A stretch of DNA of 44,174 nucleotides from Candidatus Udaeobacter sp. (GTDB lineage: Bacteria > Verrucomicrobiota > Verrucomicrobiia > Chthoniobacterales > UBA10450): positions 1 through 44,174 of the forward strand of contig JAALOD010000011.1 of the NCBI GenBank assembly GCA_013372845.1, written 5' to 3'. Positions 18,773-44,174 of the stretch are shown in pieces (position 1 is the stretch's first letter; each line of letters opens with the position of its first letter). Under the pieces are notes generated by a model, which was not told the DNA's origin, did no database searches, and worked only from the letters and a program-made list of their open reading frames with translations. Made by a program: the position numbers and the translations under genes.

Positions 18773-20719
18773 ATGCCTCGGGCTTTTCCTTCCGTTGTCA
18801 TCGAGAATTTGCAGCCGCTGATCGACGGCGGGCGCTACCCGATCAAGCGAATCGTTGGCGAAGACCTGGTTGTTGAAGCAGACATTTTCAAGGATGGGCA
18901 CGATGTCGTGGCGGCGATCCTCAAGTGGCGTGTTCTGGGGAAACGCGCATGGCGGGAAACGCCGATGAATTTCGTTGATAACGATCGCTGGGGCGGCGTT
19001 TGCACTTTGTACGATGAGGACATTCACGAATACACGGTCGAAGCGTGGACAGACACTTTTCGCAGTTGGCAGGCGGAGTTCGCAAAGAAATTTGAAGCCG
19101 GCATTTCCGATCTTCGAAGCGAAGCGCTCGAAGGCGCGGCTTTGATAGAAGCTGCCGCCAGGCGCGCGCGCGATCGAGCGGACCGCAAGCGATTGTCTGA
19201 GTTTTCCCAGCAAATTTCGACCGGTGCTAATTCAGAAATTCACGCCATCGCACGATCGGGCGAGCTGGAAGTGCTGATGGCGACATATCCCGATCGCGCA
19301 GCTGCGGCGCAATACGATCCCGCTCCCCGCGTTGTTGTAGATCGGCCTGCAGCGTTAATTGGAGCGTGGTACGAATTTTTTCCGCGCTCGGCAGAAGGCC
19401 GGGGCGATCGCGGATCGACGTTTCGCGATTGTTTGTCACGGGTGGACGACGCTCAGGCAATGGGTTTCGACGTCATTTATTTTCCGCCGATTCATCCCAT
19501 TGGGCACAGTAATCGAAAGGGCCGAAATAACTCGACCGCCTGCGAACCCGGCGATCCTGGCGTGCCATGGGCGATCGGCAGCGAAACTGGCGGGCACAAG
19601 GCCGTCGAGCCCTCGCTCGGCACGTTGGAAGATTTCGACTGGCTTCAGAAAGAGGTGCGCAAGCGCGGAATGGAAATCGCCCTCGACTTCGCGATCAATT
19701 GCTCGCCCGATCATCCTTACGTCAAAGAGCATCCCGATTGGTTCTACAAACGCCCGGACGGTACCATCAAATACGCGGAGAATCCGCCGAAGAAGTACGA
19801 AGACATTTATCCATTGAATTTTCGTTGCGAAAACTGGCGCGAGCTCTGGGCGGAGATGAAAAGCATCGTGTTGTTTTGGGCAGAGCGCGGAGTGCGCATC
19901 TTTCGGGTGGACAATCCGCACACGAAACCAGTCGCTTTCTGGGAATATTTGATAATGGGCGTCCGCGAGAAATACCCCGACACGATTTTTCTCTCCGAAG
20001 CATTCACCAGGCCAAAGATGATGAAAGCGCTGGCCAAGGCTGGTTTTAACCAGAGCTACACTTATTTTACCTGGCGAAATTCGAAGCGCGAGCTCATCGA
20101 ATATTTTACAGAGCTGACTCAAACCGAGATGAGCGAATATTTTCGCCCGAATCTTTGGACCAACACTCCCGACATCCTGCCGTTTGTACTTCAGGAGGGC
20201 GGGCGTCCCGCATTCATGATTCGCGTCGCTCTGGCCGCGACGCTTTCACCGCTTTACGGTATCTACAGCGGATATGAACTCTGCGAGAATGAAGCATTGC
20301 CGGGCCGCGAGGAGTATCTGGATTCCGAAAAATACCAGTATAAAGAGCGCGATTGGAATGCGCCGGGAAACATCAAGGACTGGATCGCCCGACTAAACAA
20401 AATCCGAAAGGAAAACCGCGCGCTGCAGCTTTACACGAATTTGCGGTTCCACGACTCCGACAACGACGCCATTCTGTTTTACAGCAAGATGACCGCGGCG
20501 CGTGATAACGTCATTCTCGTCGTTGTGAACCTTGATCCACATCGCAAACAGAATTCGTTTGTCTATGTTCCGGTTGAGAGTTTCGGACAAATGGAGAGCG
20601 ACGTCTATCAGGTGCAGGACTTGCTGAGCGGAGCGAATTACACCTGGCGCGGCCGCCGTAATTACGTAGAGCTCGATCCGAACATTCAACCCGCGCACAT
20701 TTTTCTCGTCCGCCGCTGA
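18773..20719 (+). CDS. glgE: Alpha-1,4-glucan:maltose-1-phosphate maltosyltransferase
   Basis: GH13_3 enzyme that extends alpha-glucan with maltose 1-phosphate. The start ATG 18773 has a GGAGG six bases upstream and begins MPRAFPSVVIENLQP as GlgE does; a start 16 codons earlier lies in a repeat. The N-terminal domain S and beta-sandwich occupy about 1-190. The GH13 barrel begins near GAWYEFFPRS and carries the nucleophile Asp380 in FRVDNPHTK and the acid Glu409 in FLSEAFTRP. FPPIHPIGHSNRKGRNN is a GlgE hallmark, written here as IHPIGHSNRKGRNN. 648 residues is normal. Partners (treS, mak, glgB) are not adjacent. Confidence 0.95.
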   Translation: MPRAFPSVVIENLQPLIDGGRYPIKRIVGEDLVVEADIFKDGHDVVAAILKWRVLGKRAWRETPMNFVDNDRWGGVCTLYDEDIHEYTVEAWTDTFRSWQAEFAKKFEAGISDLRSEALEGAALIEAAARRARDRADRKRLSEFSQQISTGANSEIHAIARSGELEVLMATYPDRAAAAQYDPAPRVVVDRPAALIGAWYEFFPRSAEGRGDRGSTFRDCLSRVDDAQAMGFDVIYFPPIHPIGHSNRKGRNNSTACEPGDPGVPWAIGSETGGHKAVEPSLGTLEDFDWLQKEVRKRGMEIALDFAINCSPDHPYVKEHPDWFYKRPDGTIKYAENPPKKYEDIYPLNFRCENWRELWAEMKSIVLFWAERGVRIFRVDNPHTKPVAFWEYLIMGVREKYPDTIFLSEAFTRPKMMKALAKAGFNQSYTYFTWRNSKRELIEYFTELTQTEMSEYFRPNLWTNTPDILPFVLQEGGRPAFMIRVALAATLSPLYGIYSGYELCENEALPGREEYLDSEKYQYKERDWNAPGNIKDWIARLNKIRKENRALQLYTNLRFHDSDNDAILFYSKMTAARDNVILVVVNLDPHRKQNSFVYVPVESFGQMESDVYQVQDLLSGANYTWRGRRNYVELDPNIQPAHIFLVRR

Positions 20720-20723
20720 GTAG

Positions 20724-20792
20724 TGGTAGGGATCCCGCAACCGCGGGAGGCCGTCCGCTCGATTCGGCGCGCCCGGCGGTCGTGCCCTACCA
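20724..20792. repeat. Palindromic repeat with TGGTAGGG / CCCTACCA ends
   Basis: Terminal arms TGGTAGGG (20724-20731) and CCCTACCA (20785-20792) enclose an inner perfect stem TCCCGC / GCGGGA (20733-20748) and the words GGCCGTCCG and GGCGGTCGTG. The same ends, similar length (69 versus 78 bp) and similar inner words are found inside the rnr coding sequence at 37408-37485. This copy sits just after the glgE stop. Confidence 0.75.
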
Positions 20793-35656: not shown

Positions 35657-37942
35657 ATGGCTTCGAACGGACGTAACATTCGAGAACAAATTCTGGGTCT
35701 GCTGGCGCGGAAAGACTACCGGCCGCTCGACAAGACCGACATCGCCCGCGAGCTCGGGTTGACGGGGGCCGGACAAGTAGCGTTACGCAAAAGCTTGCGC
35801 GAGCTCGAGCGCACGGGCGAGATCGCGCGCATCCGGAAGAACCGATATGTTCTGCCCGCCGAGGCTGACCTGGTGACTGGCAAACTGTCGATTCATCAAG
35901 TCGGCTACGGCTTTCTCGCGCCAGAAATCCCGGGCGGAACGGACGTTTTCATTGCGGCGGAAAACATTGGAACAGCCATGCATGGCGACCGTGTGGTTGC
36001 GCGCATATCGCGGGATGAACCTTATCGCCGCATCAAAGGACGGCGCGAAGGGCGCGTGATTCGAATACTGGAACGCGCTCACGATACGATTGTTGGCACT
36101 CTCCAACGCTCGCGGAACTTTTACTACGTAGTACCGGATGACCCGCGTATCGTTCATGACGTTTATGTAGGGCAAGTTTCTAGTTCGCCACAGGACGAAC
36201 CCGCCGTGGTGGGCCTGCCTCTTGCACCTTCCCAAGTTGCGCCACGGGTTGGTGATAAAGTTGTAGTTCGCCTGGAGGCGTGGGAATCGCGCCACGTTAA
36301 TCCCGAAGGTGAAATCATCGAAGTGCTCGGGCCCGCGTCGGCTCCGGGCATCGACATGCTGTCGATCATCCGGAAATATCATCTGCCAACGGAATTTCCC
36401 AGGGATGTTCTGGACCAGGTGAAGGGAATTCCCGAGACAGTTGATGCCCGGCAATCCGAGGGACGCGAAGATTTGCGGGGAGAATTCATCGTCACCATTG
36501 ATCCCGATGACGCGCGCGATTTCGACGACGCAATTCACGTTGAGAAGACCGGAAGCGGTTGGCGCCTCGGTGTACACATCGCCGACGTCGCCGCTTATGT
36601 GGAGCCCAACAGTCCGTTGGATCGAGAAGCGCGCCGGCGCGGAAACAGCGTTTATCTGCCCGATCGCGTAATTCCGATGTTACCGGAGCGATTGAGCAAC
36701 GGTGTCTGCAGTCTCAAACCTGGCGTCGATCGCCTCACGCACTCAGTCTTTATTCACTTCGACAAACGCGGATCCGCGAAGAGCGCGCGGTTTACACGCA
36801 GCGTGATTCGAAGTGCGCACCGGCTCACGTACAAGCAGGCTTACGCGATTTTGAAGGCGCCACCTACCGACCAGTTGGGGGAACGAGTGCATCTTGCCTG
36901 GGAACTCGCCGCGGTGCTACGGAAGAAGCGATTCGAGCATGGCGCTCTGGACCTCGATTTTCCAGAGGTAAAAGTCTGGGTCGATGAAGATGGGCGTCCC
37001 GTAAAATTGGAGCGTGTCGAGAACGATGAATCACACCAGTTGATCGAAGAATTCATGCTGGCCGCGAATGAGGCCGTCGCGCGCGAACTGAAAAAGCGCG
37101 CGATTCCGACCATCTATCGGATCCACGAAAATCCAGACCTGGAAAAATTGGCAGAGTTTCGCGAATTCGTACTCGGCTTTAATTACCGGGTTGGCGATCT
37201 GACTCATCGCGCTGAGCTCCAGCGATTGGTGGCGTCATTCCGTGGAAAACCAGAAGAGCAGGCCCTCAAAGTCGCTTTGCTTAAAAGTTTAAAACGCGCC
37301 CGTTACTCTCCGCAACCGCTCGGGCATTACGGCTTGGCGAAGGCGAACTACTTGCATTTTACCAGCCCTATTCGGCGTTACGCCGACCTGGTTGCGCATT
37401 GTGCGCTTGGTAGGGACGGCACTCCGTTCCCGTCCGCACCCTACCGAACCACCGAACGGCGGTCACGGAGTGACACGCCCTACCAGCCCGACATGGCCGA
37501 GATCGCTTCGATTGCCGAGCACGTTTCAACTACCGAACGAACTGCAGCCGACGCGGAAGTTGACGCGGTCCAGATGAAGAAACTTGAATTTTTTCAACGG
37601 CAGCTCGATGAGCGCAAGCCAAAGATCTTCCGCGCCAGCGTTATTGATGTCCGTAACTACGGATTGATGGTGGAACTACCGGACGCTCTGGTGACCGGGT
37701 TAGTCCACGTCTCCTCGTTGATGGACGACTTTTATTCGTTTGAGCCGGCTCGACGGCAGCTTATAGGGAGACGGTCGCGCAAACGCTTTAGCGTAGGCGA
37801 CGAGTTATCCGTGTTTGTTGTCCGTGTTGACGCTTTCAAACGACAGGTGGATTTCGCAATTGCGCTTGCGTCCGAAGCGTCAAAAAAACCCCGCCGCATG
37901 AGAGGACCATCCAGGATTGCTTCAGGGACACATCGGAACTGA
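35657..37942 (+). CDS. rnr: Ribonuclease R (RNB family), with a repeat-derived insertion
   Basis: Processive 3'-5' exoribonuclease. 761 residues: N-terminal winged helix (1-70), two cold-shock domains (about 75-230), RNB catalytic domain with the acidic set Asp282, Asp284, Asp285, Asp288, Asp290, Asp291 in DPDDARDFDDA, and a C-terminal S1 domain (about 655-730) before a short basic tail. Near RYADLVAHCAL in the RNB domain, residues about 585-610 (GRDGTPFPSAPYRTTERRS and following) match no RNase R region and are encoded by a palindromic repeat of 78 bp. The frame is kept, and the conserved EIASIAEHVSTTERTAADAE follows. The insertion sits between two helices, so activity may persist. Confidence 0.93.
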   Translation: MASNGRNIREQILGLLARKDYRPLDKTDIARELGLTGAGQVALRKSLRELERTGEIARIRKNRYVLPAEADLVTGKLSIHQVGYGFLAPEIPGGTDVFIAAENIGTAMHGDRVVARISRDEPYRRIKGRREGRVIRILERAHDTIVGTLQRSRNFYYVVPDDPRIVHDVYVGQVSSSPQDEPAVVGLPLAPSQVAPRVGDKVVVRLEAWESRHVNPEGEIIEVLGPASAPGIDMLSIIRKYHLPTEFPRDVLDQVKGIPETVDARQSEGREDLRGEFIVTIDPDDARDFDDAIHVEKTGSGWRLGVHIADVAAYVEPNSPLDREARRRGNSVYLPDRVIPMLPERLSNGVCSLKPGVDRLTHSVFIHFDKRGSAKSARFTRSVIRSAHRLTYKQAYAILKAPPTDQLGERVHLAWELAAVLRKKRFEHGALDLDFPEVKVWVDEDGRPVKLERVENDESHQLIEEFMLAANEAVARELKKRAIPTIYRIHENPDLEKLAEFREFVLGFNYRVGDLTHRAELQRLVASFRGKPEEQALKVALLKSLKRARYSPQPLGHYGLAKANYLHFTSPIRRYADLVAHCALGRDGTPFPSAPYRTTERRSRSDTPYQPDMAEIASIAEHVSTTERTAADAEVDAVQMKKLEFFQRQLDERKPKIFRASVIDVRNYGLMVELPDALVTGLVHVSSLMDDFYSFEPARRQLIGRRSRKRFSVGDELSVFVVRVDAFKRQVDFAIALASEASKKPRRMRGPSRIASGTHRN
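37408..37485. repeat. TGGTAGGG / CCCTACCA repeat inserted in frame in rnr
   Basis: Terminal arms TGGTAGGG (37408-37415) and CCCTACCA (37478-37485) bound a 78-bp unit, exactly 26 codons, so the reading frame is preserved. Inner words GGACGG / CCGTCC (37414-37419, 37430-37435) and CACTCCG / CGGAGTG form further pairs. The intergenic copy at 20724-20792 has the same ends and similar inner words. Confidence 0.8.
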
Positions 37943-42383: not shown

Positions 42384-42398
42384 CAGCAGCTATTCCAG

Positions 42399-42531
42399 GG
42401 AGCACAGGCTGCTCGCCTGTCGGTCTCGGCAGCTTGTCGAAGCCGGGAGAATAGCGTCACCTCGGAATTGCGTGTCCAAAGATGTTGCCGGCAGGGCTGC
42501 CGGCAACTACAGGCTGGCAGCCTGTGCTCCC
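42399..42531. repeat. 133-bp nested palindrome between dnaB and tkt
   Basis: Outer arms GGGAGCACAGGCTG (42399-42412) and CAGCCTGTGCTCCC (42518-42531) are 14 bp and perfect. Inside lies another perfect hairpin, GTTGCCGGCAG / CTGCCGGCAAC (42484-42494, 42497-42507) with a GG loop. Words GCAGGCTG/CAGCCTG are shared with the pair at 6838-6858. Both dnaB and tkt end here, so it may also serve as a bidirectional terminator. Confidence 0.75.
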
Positions 42532-42536
42532 CGGAA

Positions 42537-44174
42537 TCAGCCGCCCGCGTGCAAGAGTGATTTCGCCGCATCAATCACATGCTGCGCGTCGATCCCGCGC
42601 TCTTTCATCACCTCCGGGCCGGGCGCGCTCAAGCCGAACTGATGGAGCCCGACTACCTTCCCGTCGAGGCCGACGTATTGATACCAAATCTCAGTCACTC
42701 CGGCTTCGATGGCGACGCGTCTACGGCATTCGTTAGGCAGAACTTCTTCACGGTATTCTTGCGGCTGGCGATTAAAACGTTCGAAGCAAGGCATGGAGAC
42801 AACGCGCGCGCCGTCTCCGAGCTGTCCCGCTGCCGCGAGCGCGTGTTGCAATTCGCTTCCGCACGACATGATAATCAGATCGAGTTTCGCTTTCTCTTTC
42901 CTGGCAACGTAACCGCCACGAAGCACTCCTTCGCGGCGTAATTTTACGTCGATATCGTTCAACATCGGCACTGTCTGCCGTGTAAGCGCGAGAAAGGTTG
43001 GTCCATCGATTCGTTGCATCGCCGCCACAAACGCGCCAGCAGTCTCTTCAGGATCGGCCGGGCGAATTACGTCAATGTTCGGTATTAAGCGGACGGAGCT
43101 CACTGTCTCCACGGGTTCATGAGTGGGACCGTCTTCACCGACACCGATCGAGTCATGAGTGAAAATGTAAGTATTGGGGAGCTTTGCCAGCGCGGCCAGC
43201 CGAATAGCAGGGCGGCAATAATCGGTGAAAACAGCAAAGGTTGCGCCAGATGCGCGGAACAGTCCGTGATACGAGATGCCGTTTAGAATCGCGCACATCC
43301 CATGTTCGCGAATGCCGAAGCGGATGTTACGCCCGCCAGGGTCGTCGCGATTGAAATCGCCGCCGCCGTCGATGTAGTTCATTGTCGATCCGTACAGATC
43401 GGCACTGCCACTCATGAGCAACGGCATCGCTTGCGCAATGGGCTGCAATACTTCCCCTCCGGCTTTTCGCGTCGCTAGCTTCGCATCCTTGGGAAAGTCA
43501 GGAATCTTCGAGAAAAGATCCGCCGGAACTCTTCGCTCAACACCGTCATCAAGGATTTTCGCCTTATCAGGATTTTTCGTGCGCCACGCGTTGTAGGTTT
43601 GTTCCCACTTCTCGTAATCGGCGAGGAGCTTCTTTTTGTGTTCGGCAAAATAGTCGTACACCTCCTGCGAGACGAAATAATGTTCGTCTGGCAGGCCGAG
43701 CGCCTTGCGGGCTGCATCAACATACTTTGCGCCCGCCTCTCCATGCGCTTTATACGTCCCTGCCACTTCCGGGATGCCTTTGCCGATGAGCGTGTGCGCG
43801 ATGATGAATTGCGGTTTCCCGTTGTCGCGCCGCTTCGCCACGTTCAACGCGTCGAGAAACTGTTGCATGTCGTGGCCATCGATTTCCTGGACATCGAAGC
43901 CATACGCCTCCATGCGTTTGTGGGTGTCTTCGCTCTGCGTTTCCTTCGCCGCGGCATCCAGCGTGACGGCATTTGAATCGTAGATGTAGATCAAATTATC
44001 GAGGCCCCAGTGACCGGCGAGTGCGCACGCCTCGGAAGCGACGCCTTCCTGCATGTCGCCGTCGCCGCACAAACAGATCACGTGCTGATCGAAAATCTTG
44101 TGCTCATCAGTATTGAAACGCGCAGCAGCCATTTTTGTCGCCACGGAAATGCCTACTGAGTTGCCGACTCCCTG
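42537..44174 (-). CDS. tkt: Transketolase, 5' part cut by the window edge
   Basis: Thiamine-diphosphate enzyme of the pentose phosphate/Calvin pathway. 545 residues are visible; the N-terminal about 120-130 residues lie beyond the right edge, where the frame is open (QGVGNSVGIS precedes the first visible start-like codon). The TPP-binding motif GDGDMQEGVASEA is near the start of the visible part. Later landmarks are HDGHD-like DGHDMQQFLDAL, then FGIREHGM with the catalytic Glu and His, and THDSIGVGEDGPTHEPVE. The C-terminal domain ends PEVMKERGIDAQHVIDAA. Confidence 0.95.
   Translation of the reverse strand, partial: QGVGNSVGISVATKMAAARFNTDEHKIFDQHVICLCGDGDMQEGVASEACALAGHWGLDNLIYIYDSNAVTLDAAAKETQSEDTHKRMEAYGFDVQEIDGHDMQQFLDALNVAKRRDNGKPQFIIAHTLIGKGIPEVAGTYKAHGEAGAKYVDAARKALGLPDEHYFVSQEVYDYFAEHKKKLLADYEKWEQTYNAWRTKNPDKAKILDDGVERRVPADLFSKIPDFPKDAKLATRKAGGEVLQPIAQAMPLLMSGSADLYGSTMNYIDGGGDFNRDDPGGRNIRFGIREHGMCAILNGISYHGLFRASGATFAVFTDYCRPAIRLAALAKLPNTYIFTHDSIGVGEDGPTHEPVETVSSVRLIPNIDVIRPADPEETAGAFVAAMQRIDGPTFLALTRQTVPMLNDIDVKLRREGVLRGGYVARKEKAKLDLIIMSCGSELQHALAAAGQLGDGARVVSMPCFERFNRQPQEYREEVLPNECRRRVAIEAGVTEIWYQYVGLDGKVVGLHQFGLSAPGPEVMKERGIDAQHVIDAAKSLLHAGG

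Follow-up and report, generated by a model that had tools for sequence, protein, structure and literature searches.

How did a palindrome of mobile type come to be translated within a conserved ribonuclease, and what keeps it there? The locus that raises this question lies in a 44,174-nucleotide stretch of the soil bacterium Candidatus Udaeobacter sp. (contig JAALOD010000011.1; below, the window means this whole stretch), and was singled out by an earlier note made from the sequence.

An in-frame REPIN in the RNase R gene

The window codes for an RNase R with an uninterrupted open reading frame of 761 residues that includes the RNB, CSD2, OB_RNB and S1 Pfam domains. As the earlier note had it, a palindromic unit is read in frame within this intact frame (Table 1): the 78-bp element begins at the third base of the codon for Leu584, encodes residues 585-610, starts with TGGTAGGG, ends with CCCTACCA and has perfect 8-bp inverted ends. 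It folds as a single hairpin (-37.9 kcal/mol, z -4.2), matched by none of 200 shuffled sequences. A GTAG is found at the hairpin foot in both halves of the unit, with the second half inverted: this is the layout of a head-to-head dimer of GTAG REPs, i.e. a REPIN. A further feature of REPINs, extragenic location, is absent from the rnr copy, which sits within a gene; as GTAG REPs inside genes have been reported (PMC3733652), that feature does not exclude others.

Table 1. Positions of rnr, of its in-frame element with its constituent parts, and of a related intergenic element in the window
Feature	Position	Strand	Basis
rnr, RNase R	35657..37942	+	intact 761-codon ORF; translation; Pfam; matches to solved RNase R chains
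78-bp GTAG-type REPIN, type A, in frame	37408..37485		sequence, fold, matches outside rnr, relatives
Left REP half, slot codons 1-9, GTAG foot and hairpin	37409..37435		third-position divergence; same REP adjoins RAYT gene in G013
Spacer between REP halves, codons 10-15	37436..37453		third-position divergence
Right REP half, inverted, from codon 16, end CCCTACCA	37454..37485		third-position divergence; half matches in many genus genomes
Intergenic element of the same family, other REP type	20725..20791		pattern search, fold, match to slot L031

The element family in the genome, genus and family

The own genome (an assembly of 3.22 Mb in 145 contigs, 83% complete) has 5 places that match the pattern GGTAGGG-N35-65-CCCTACC, and none that match its reversed-pattern control. 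A shorter pattern, GGTAGGG-N14-44-CCCTACC, is found in 34 of the 35 genus genomes at 1-23 places each (reversed control 0-1), and a related pattern in 57 of 83 genomes from 9 of the 14 genera of the bacterial family. These copies in the own genome and the genus bear out both the existence of further copies and the assignment of the palindrome to a family of mobile type. BLAST searches with the 78-bp unit recovered matches in 20 of the 35 genus genomes: those spanning most of the unit are in rnr in 8 genomes, in G013:C153 (77% identity) and in G008:C96 (71%), and the others listed are confined to one half or fall short of the full unit.

The second copy in the window, described earlier as an intergenic sister with the same ends, does share the 7-base ends of the rnr element and lies downstream of an ORF ending at 20719, but it is of another REP type: a 34-base stretch of it is 88% identical to a type-D slot of a relative (L031). 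Its fold is also less exceptional (z -2.0; 6 of 200 shuffles equally good). A different family of palindromic repeats is represented at 42392-42537 by 42-nt arms that are 83% complementary and 62 nt apart; the own genome has 13 places with its core, ACAGGCTGNNNGCCTGT, and none with the reversed control.

The slot in relatives

The rnr gene was recovered from 31 of the 35 genus genomes (none in four; three gave parts without the slot), so that the slot can be read in 28. A GTAG-type element, or a presumed eroded one, occupies 20 of these slots, which by eye were assigned to type A (8), type B (3), type C (4), type D (2) and others (three). The other 8 of the 28 readable relatives have a native linker, in keeping with the earlier expectation that the insertion should be absent from some. 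This native segment is 18 codons long in all 8 genes, with an RD..RR.R.DM-like sequence, and the sister genera of the family mostly share this length, a few cases differing. The variable segment of the window gene has 34 codons vs the native 18, a net gain of 16, so that about 10 native codons were lost at the slot: the linker was replaced and not cleanly interrupted. Hence the 26-codon unit is indeed 78 bp read in frame, but it is not a pure insertion. No clean target duplication at an empty site could be established, with the native linker gone in both of the gains described below.

Outside rnr, matches were found for 16 of the 19 element slots examined vs one of the 8 native slots, the latter weak, in a comparison that took in 27 of the 28 slots and left out L007. 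The slots without such a match among those with elements are L010 (type B), L013 and L021, whose position suggests that they are eroded elements. The spacer of the window copy, alone among the 8 type-A rows compared, has gained an extra CCCTACC, so that the element contains another GGTAGGG..CCCTACC pair, at 37409-37445; where the window has this CCCTACC, the sister species L007 has CCCTCTC.

In a tree of the rest of the protein with the slot excluded (41 rows, 28 of them from the genus) two gains are needed: one on the branch leading to 19 rows (96/98), and a separate one in L028, the nearest row to which, L025, is native (100/99). Eight changes of slot content are also needed, where the minimum for eight states is 7, three of the states being single rows and some forks within the 19-row clade being weak. 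The two gains and eight changes together mean that REP types have been exchanged at the slot. Type A is scattered across several branches of the 19-row clade and its spacer is homologous throughout, and hence it is likely to be the ancestral content, with types B, C and D having replaced it later. The slot of L029, in which type A is followed by the remnant of a second REP, looks like an intermediate in such an exchange.

A permissive and probably disordered linker

An AlphaFold2 model of the protein (33 sequences; mean pLDDT 84.4, pTM 0.82) places residues 589-606 in a coil with pLDDT below 50, between helices 575-585 and 613-651; thus the slot is predicted to be a disordered loop. In alignments this segment is also of variable length among solved RNase R proteins. 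The pN/pS ratio is 0.44-0.61 in element slots, 0.40 in native linkers and 0.08-0.13 in the flanks, as computed with 7 of the 8 type-A rows (L007 left out). The linker loop of rnr is permissive with or without an element.

Conservation of the REP halves at third codon positions

The unexpected part of the locus is that third positions of the REP halves are conserved inside a coding region. Across the 8 type-A species, L007 included, third-position divergence is 0.083 in the codons of the left REP (21/252 comparisons) and 0.10 in codons 16-25 of the right REP (28/280), vs 0.534 in the spacer (86/161) and 0.427 in the 75 upstream codons (897/2100). The lowest flank windows show at least 31.3% (9 codons) and at least 34.3% (10 codons). 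On the same rows, the pS of type A (0.219) lies below that of all 432 overlapping flank windows. The pS of type C is also low, with 1.6% of flank windows as low; no such reduction is seen in type B (44% of windows as low), in native linkers (16%) or in the closest pair, L006/L007 (31.7%). The species pairs behind these values are related and not independent, and the stretch is short.

The REP halves seem to be held at the level of the nucleic acid, either because the hairpin is under selection or because repeats elsewhere in the genome convert it. Of the two, conversion seems likelier, since slot contents erode or change in place and since the copy outside rnr in G008 has an identical left REP.

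Elements inside other genes

We catalogued 97 elements at 95 loci, drawn from the own genome, from one place in each of 30 further genomes and from the listed places of several genomes; this is not a random sample. Frames open for at least 50 codons on both sides contain 29 of the 97, and 15 are strictly intragenic, lying inside a Pfam domain or flanked by domains of the same protein; the other 14 open-frame elements had no Pfam match, or one on one side only, and were not counted. The 15 comprise three in rnr (assigned by way of the P0001 domains), two each in GH3 and IspG, and one each in genes for FtsY, an amidohydrolase, a HemN-like enzyme, an FAD halogenase, DnaE, a lipoate ligase, UvrA and a MiaB-like enzyme; the calls for IspG and FtsY also rest on orthologue alignments. 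The same family is in frame in other core genes of the genus, which goes beyond what had been claimed.

The intragenic elements are read in the two frames in which the TAG of GGTAG is not a stop codon. Adaptation of the elements to coding was considered and rejected: their sequences have 3.2 of 6 frames open vs 4.5 of 6 in shuffled copies, a deficit partly forced by the TAG in the GGTAG ends. Bacterial genomes are mostly coding, and yet 15 of 97 elements are intragenic; together with the deficit of open frames, this points to selection after insertion, and the in-frame bias is probably due to such selection and not to targeting. Accordingly, of the suggestion that the palindrome tolerates, or prefers, in-frame landing in essential genes, tolerance stands and preference does not.

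Three of these proteins show comparable slots. GH3 carries elements in at least 6 of 30 orthologue loci (the slot is readable in 15), with two more placed by position only; IspG has two slots, at which 5 genomes show exact elements and a sixth is recognized by its peptide; and the FtsY loop, readable in 30 of 30 loci, has 19 codons in 17, a GGTAGG-type element in 3, other long palindromes of two kinds in 4 and other inserts in 6, three of which may be remnants. That the loops of GH3, IspG and FtsY are filled alike suggests that permissive loops are refilled by active small hairpins, and not that they are targeted.

Beyond these, one IspG slot holds a different repeat peptide, NDEIRMTNDE-like, in three species (L308, L316, L319). 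The loop behind the FtsY P-loop helix (loci L334-L363) bears its GGTAGG-type REPINs in L334, L336 and L339, TGTAGGGCGTCTGTG palindromes in L335 and L340, and a longer GTAGCGC/GCGCTACC-like palindrome in L338 and L341.

A probable link to RAYT transposases

Matches to PF01797 occur in 33 of the 35 genomes, many of them weak. In G013 a RAYT gene is flanked by type-A REPINs, so the feature of REPINs that the same REP adjoins a RAYT gene is found there on either flank; the RAYTs of G009 and G024 have related GGTAGGGCGCG REPINs adjoining. The RAYT of the own genome scores 94.7 bits, vs an NCBIfam cut-off of 80, and is flanked by dimers of a sister subfamily, TGTAGCC..GGCTACA; a cognate RAYT of the window element was not found in this genome. 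Screening 125 loci with RAYT queries gave 4 that match r364, r366 and r369, two of which (L057 and L272) coincide; L249 matched only r365, and the match of L230 was to a different Y1 protein, r371. The RAYT link stems from this screen; on this reading, the 78-bp REPIN would have been moved by a RAYT.

High-scoring Y1 transposases were also tried as partners of the GGTAGGG elements and rejected, with an element nearby at 1 of 12 loci. The intact RAYT of the own genome and its sister-subfamily GTAG dimers (L364, about 1230-1870) constitute a REPtron of another REP type. Also in G013, two type-A-like REPINs follow the DNA methylase domain within a 975-codon open frame (L272 1862-4786), whose contig also carries the type-A REPtron of this genome.

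Origin and maintenance of the rnr element

We consider it quite probable that the locus is an old insertion of a GTAG-type REPIN in a permissive linker of RNase R, in which the native linker was lost and survival was decided by selection. A REPIN (such hairpin pairs are non-autonomous, and RAYTs are believed to move them) would have landed behind the RNB core in an ancestor of 19 of the genus rows sampled, at the cost of a native linker of about 10 residues. As the linker is disordered, by prediction, and permissive, inserts that are in frame and free of stops would survive there and others would be purged. The type exchange suggested by the tree might then have come about when another REPIN inserted next to the resident one, or through recombination between the GGTAGGG/CCCTACC ends that the types share.

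Several results count against this: no cognate RAYT was found in the own genome, 1 of 12 high-scoring Y1 loci has a GGTAGGG element nearby, no clean target duplication at an empty site could be established, L010, L013 and L021 lack matches outside rnr, the content changes exceed the minimum by one, and the REP halves are nearly invariant, which is unexpected for a purely neutral relic. This last point lends some plausibility, clearly less than that of the old insertion, to the idea that the hairpins in rnr are kept as nucleic acid, be it as a structured part of the rnr mRNA that RNase R itself may read, or as an active REP site maintained by conversion: the REP halves diverge at 0.083 and 0.10 vs 0.427 upstream, where no 9- or 10-codon window falls below 0.313, type A is lower in pS than every one of the overlapping flank windows, and the left REP recurs unchanged in the G008 copy. 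However, no comparable constraint is found in type B, in native linkers or in the closest pair, the slot has seen other contents erode or give way to new ones, and the short stretch is compared over row pairs that are not independent. RNase R acts on structured RNA, and in E. coli it degrades REP-containing mRNA; that the hairpins have been retained as RNA or DNA here, with RNase R meeting a REP structure in its own message, or through conversion, is a proposition we regard as improbable. If true, a transposon hairpin would have turned into a regulatory part that is also translated.

A true hotspot, at which REPINs or their transposase recognize the linker DNA of rnr so that landing is targeted instead of being filtered by selection, would account for the coincidence of both gains at one codon boundary (L|GGTAGGG) and for the several types in one place. 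We deem it unlikely: the loops of GH3, IspG and FtsY are filled likewise, that of FtsY also by at least two other palindromic families, and REP-like DNA in the native linkers is not above background. The last point bears equally on the proposal that the native linker arose by microhomology or as a quasi-REP, which we rejected, its REP-likeness being no higher than that of other rnr windows (native linkers in the top 5% for 6/33 with type C, 5/33 with short C and 0/33 with the left half of type A). That the unit is no mobile element, but an Arg-rich native linker turned palindromic by drift or seeded through its likeness to REPs, is very improbable: both native linkers and element peptides have R-D followed by R-R, but the same REP-likeness counts speak against it, and the element slots match repeats elsewhere.

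Here a single protein slot can be traced through 28 species, from native linker through gain and type exchange to apparent erosion into a plain linker. The slot thereby makes testable how mobile hairpins become protein sequence, and whether it is the hairpin or the peptide that is kept.

Comparison with known systems

REPINs have been defined as inverted REP doublets that fold as one hairpin, and RAYT genes as having such REPs adjoining (PMC3116915). The present elements resemble that system, as far as it is set out in the accessible part of that paper, in the inverted doublet, the single hairpin and the RAYT-adjoining REPs; unlike the REPINs there, which are described in extragenic space, the rnr copy is within a coding frame. 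The palindromic elements of Rickettsia, offered earlier as a parallel, are a fair one: in the accessible text of PMC2229807 they are 105-146 bp long and lie in frame in conserved proteins, and Gmk, a carrier of one, is translated and active. What they have in common with the rnr unit, in frame in conserved proteins, is shared behaviour and not kinship, the rnr unit being 78 bp long, outside their length range, with GTAG feet and of a different repeat family.

The GTAG REPs of PMC3733652 are closer. Intragenic, in-frame GTAG REPs were described there in 2013, most of them in Opitutus terrae of the Verrucomicrobia, and in two Xanthomonas species recB carries REPs that differ but sit at nearly the same site. 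The main text of that paper does not mention RNase R, nor does the accessible part of PMC12306157 mention Verrucomicrobia. Our literature search, outside which most subscription journals and supplements lay, turned up no paper that deals with REPs in rnr, nor one that reports REP types being exchanged across a genus at a slot in a protein. As a kind, intragenic GTAG REPs are thus already known, and the rnr element is the same as those of PMC3733652, as described in its main text, in being a GTAG-footed hairpin, often dimeric, in frame in conserved genes. Unlike that account, the present one follows one slot over 28 species with a tree, the native state, the replacement of the linker, the exchange of types and the conservation of the REP halves; of these, two are apparently new as far as that search goes: that REP types were exchanged across a genus at a single slot of a protein, and that the REP halves hardly vary at third codon positions while the spacer diverges.
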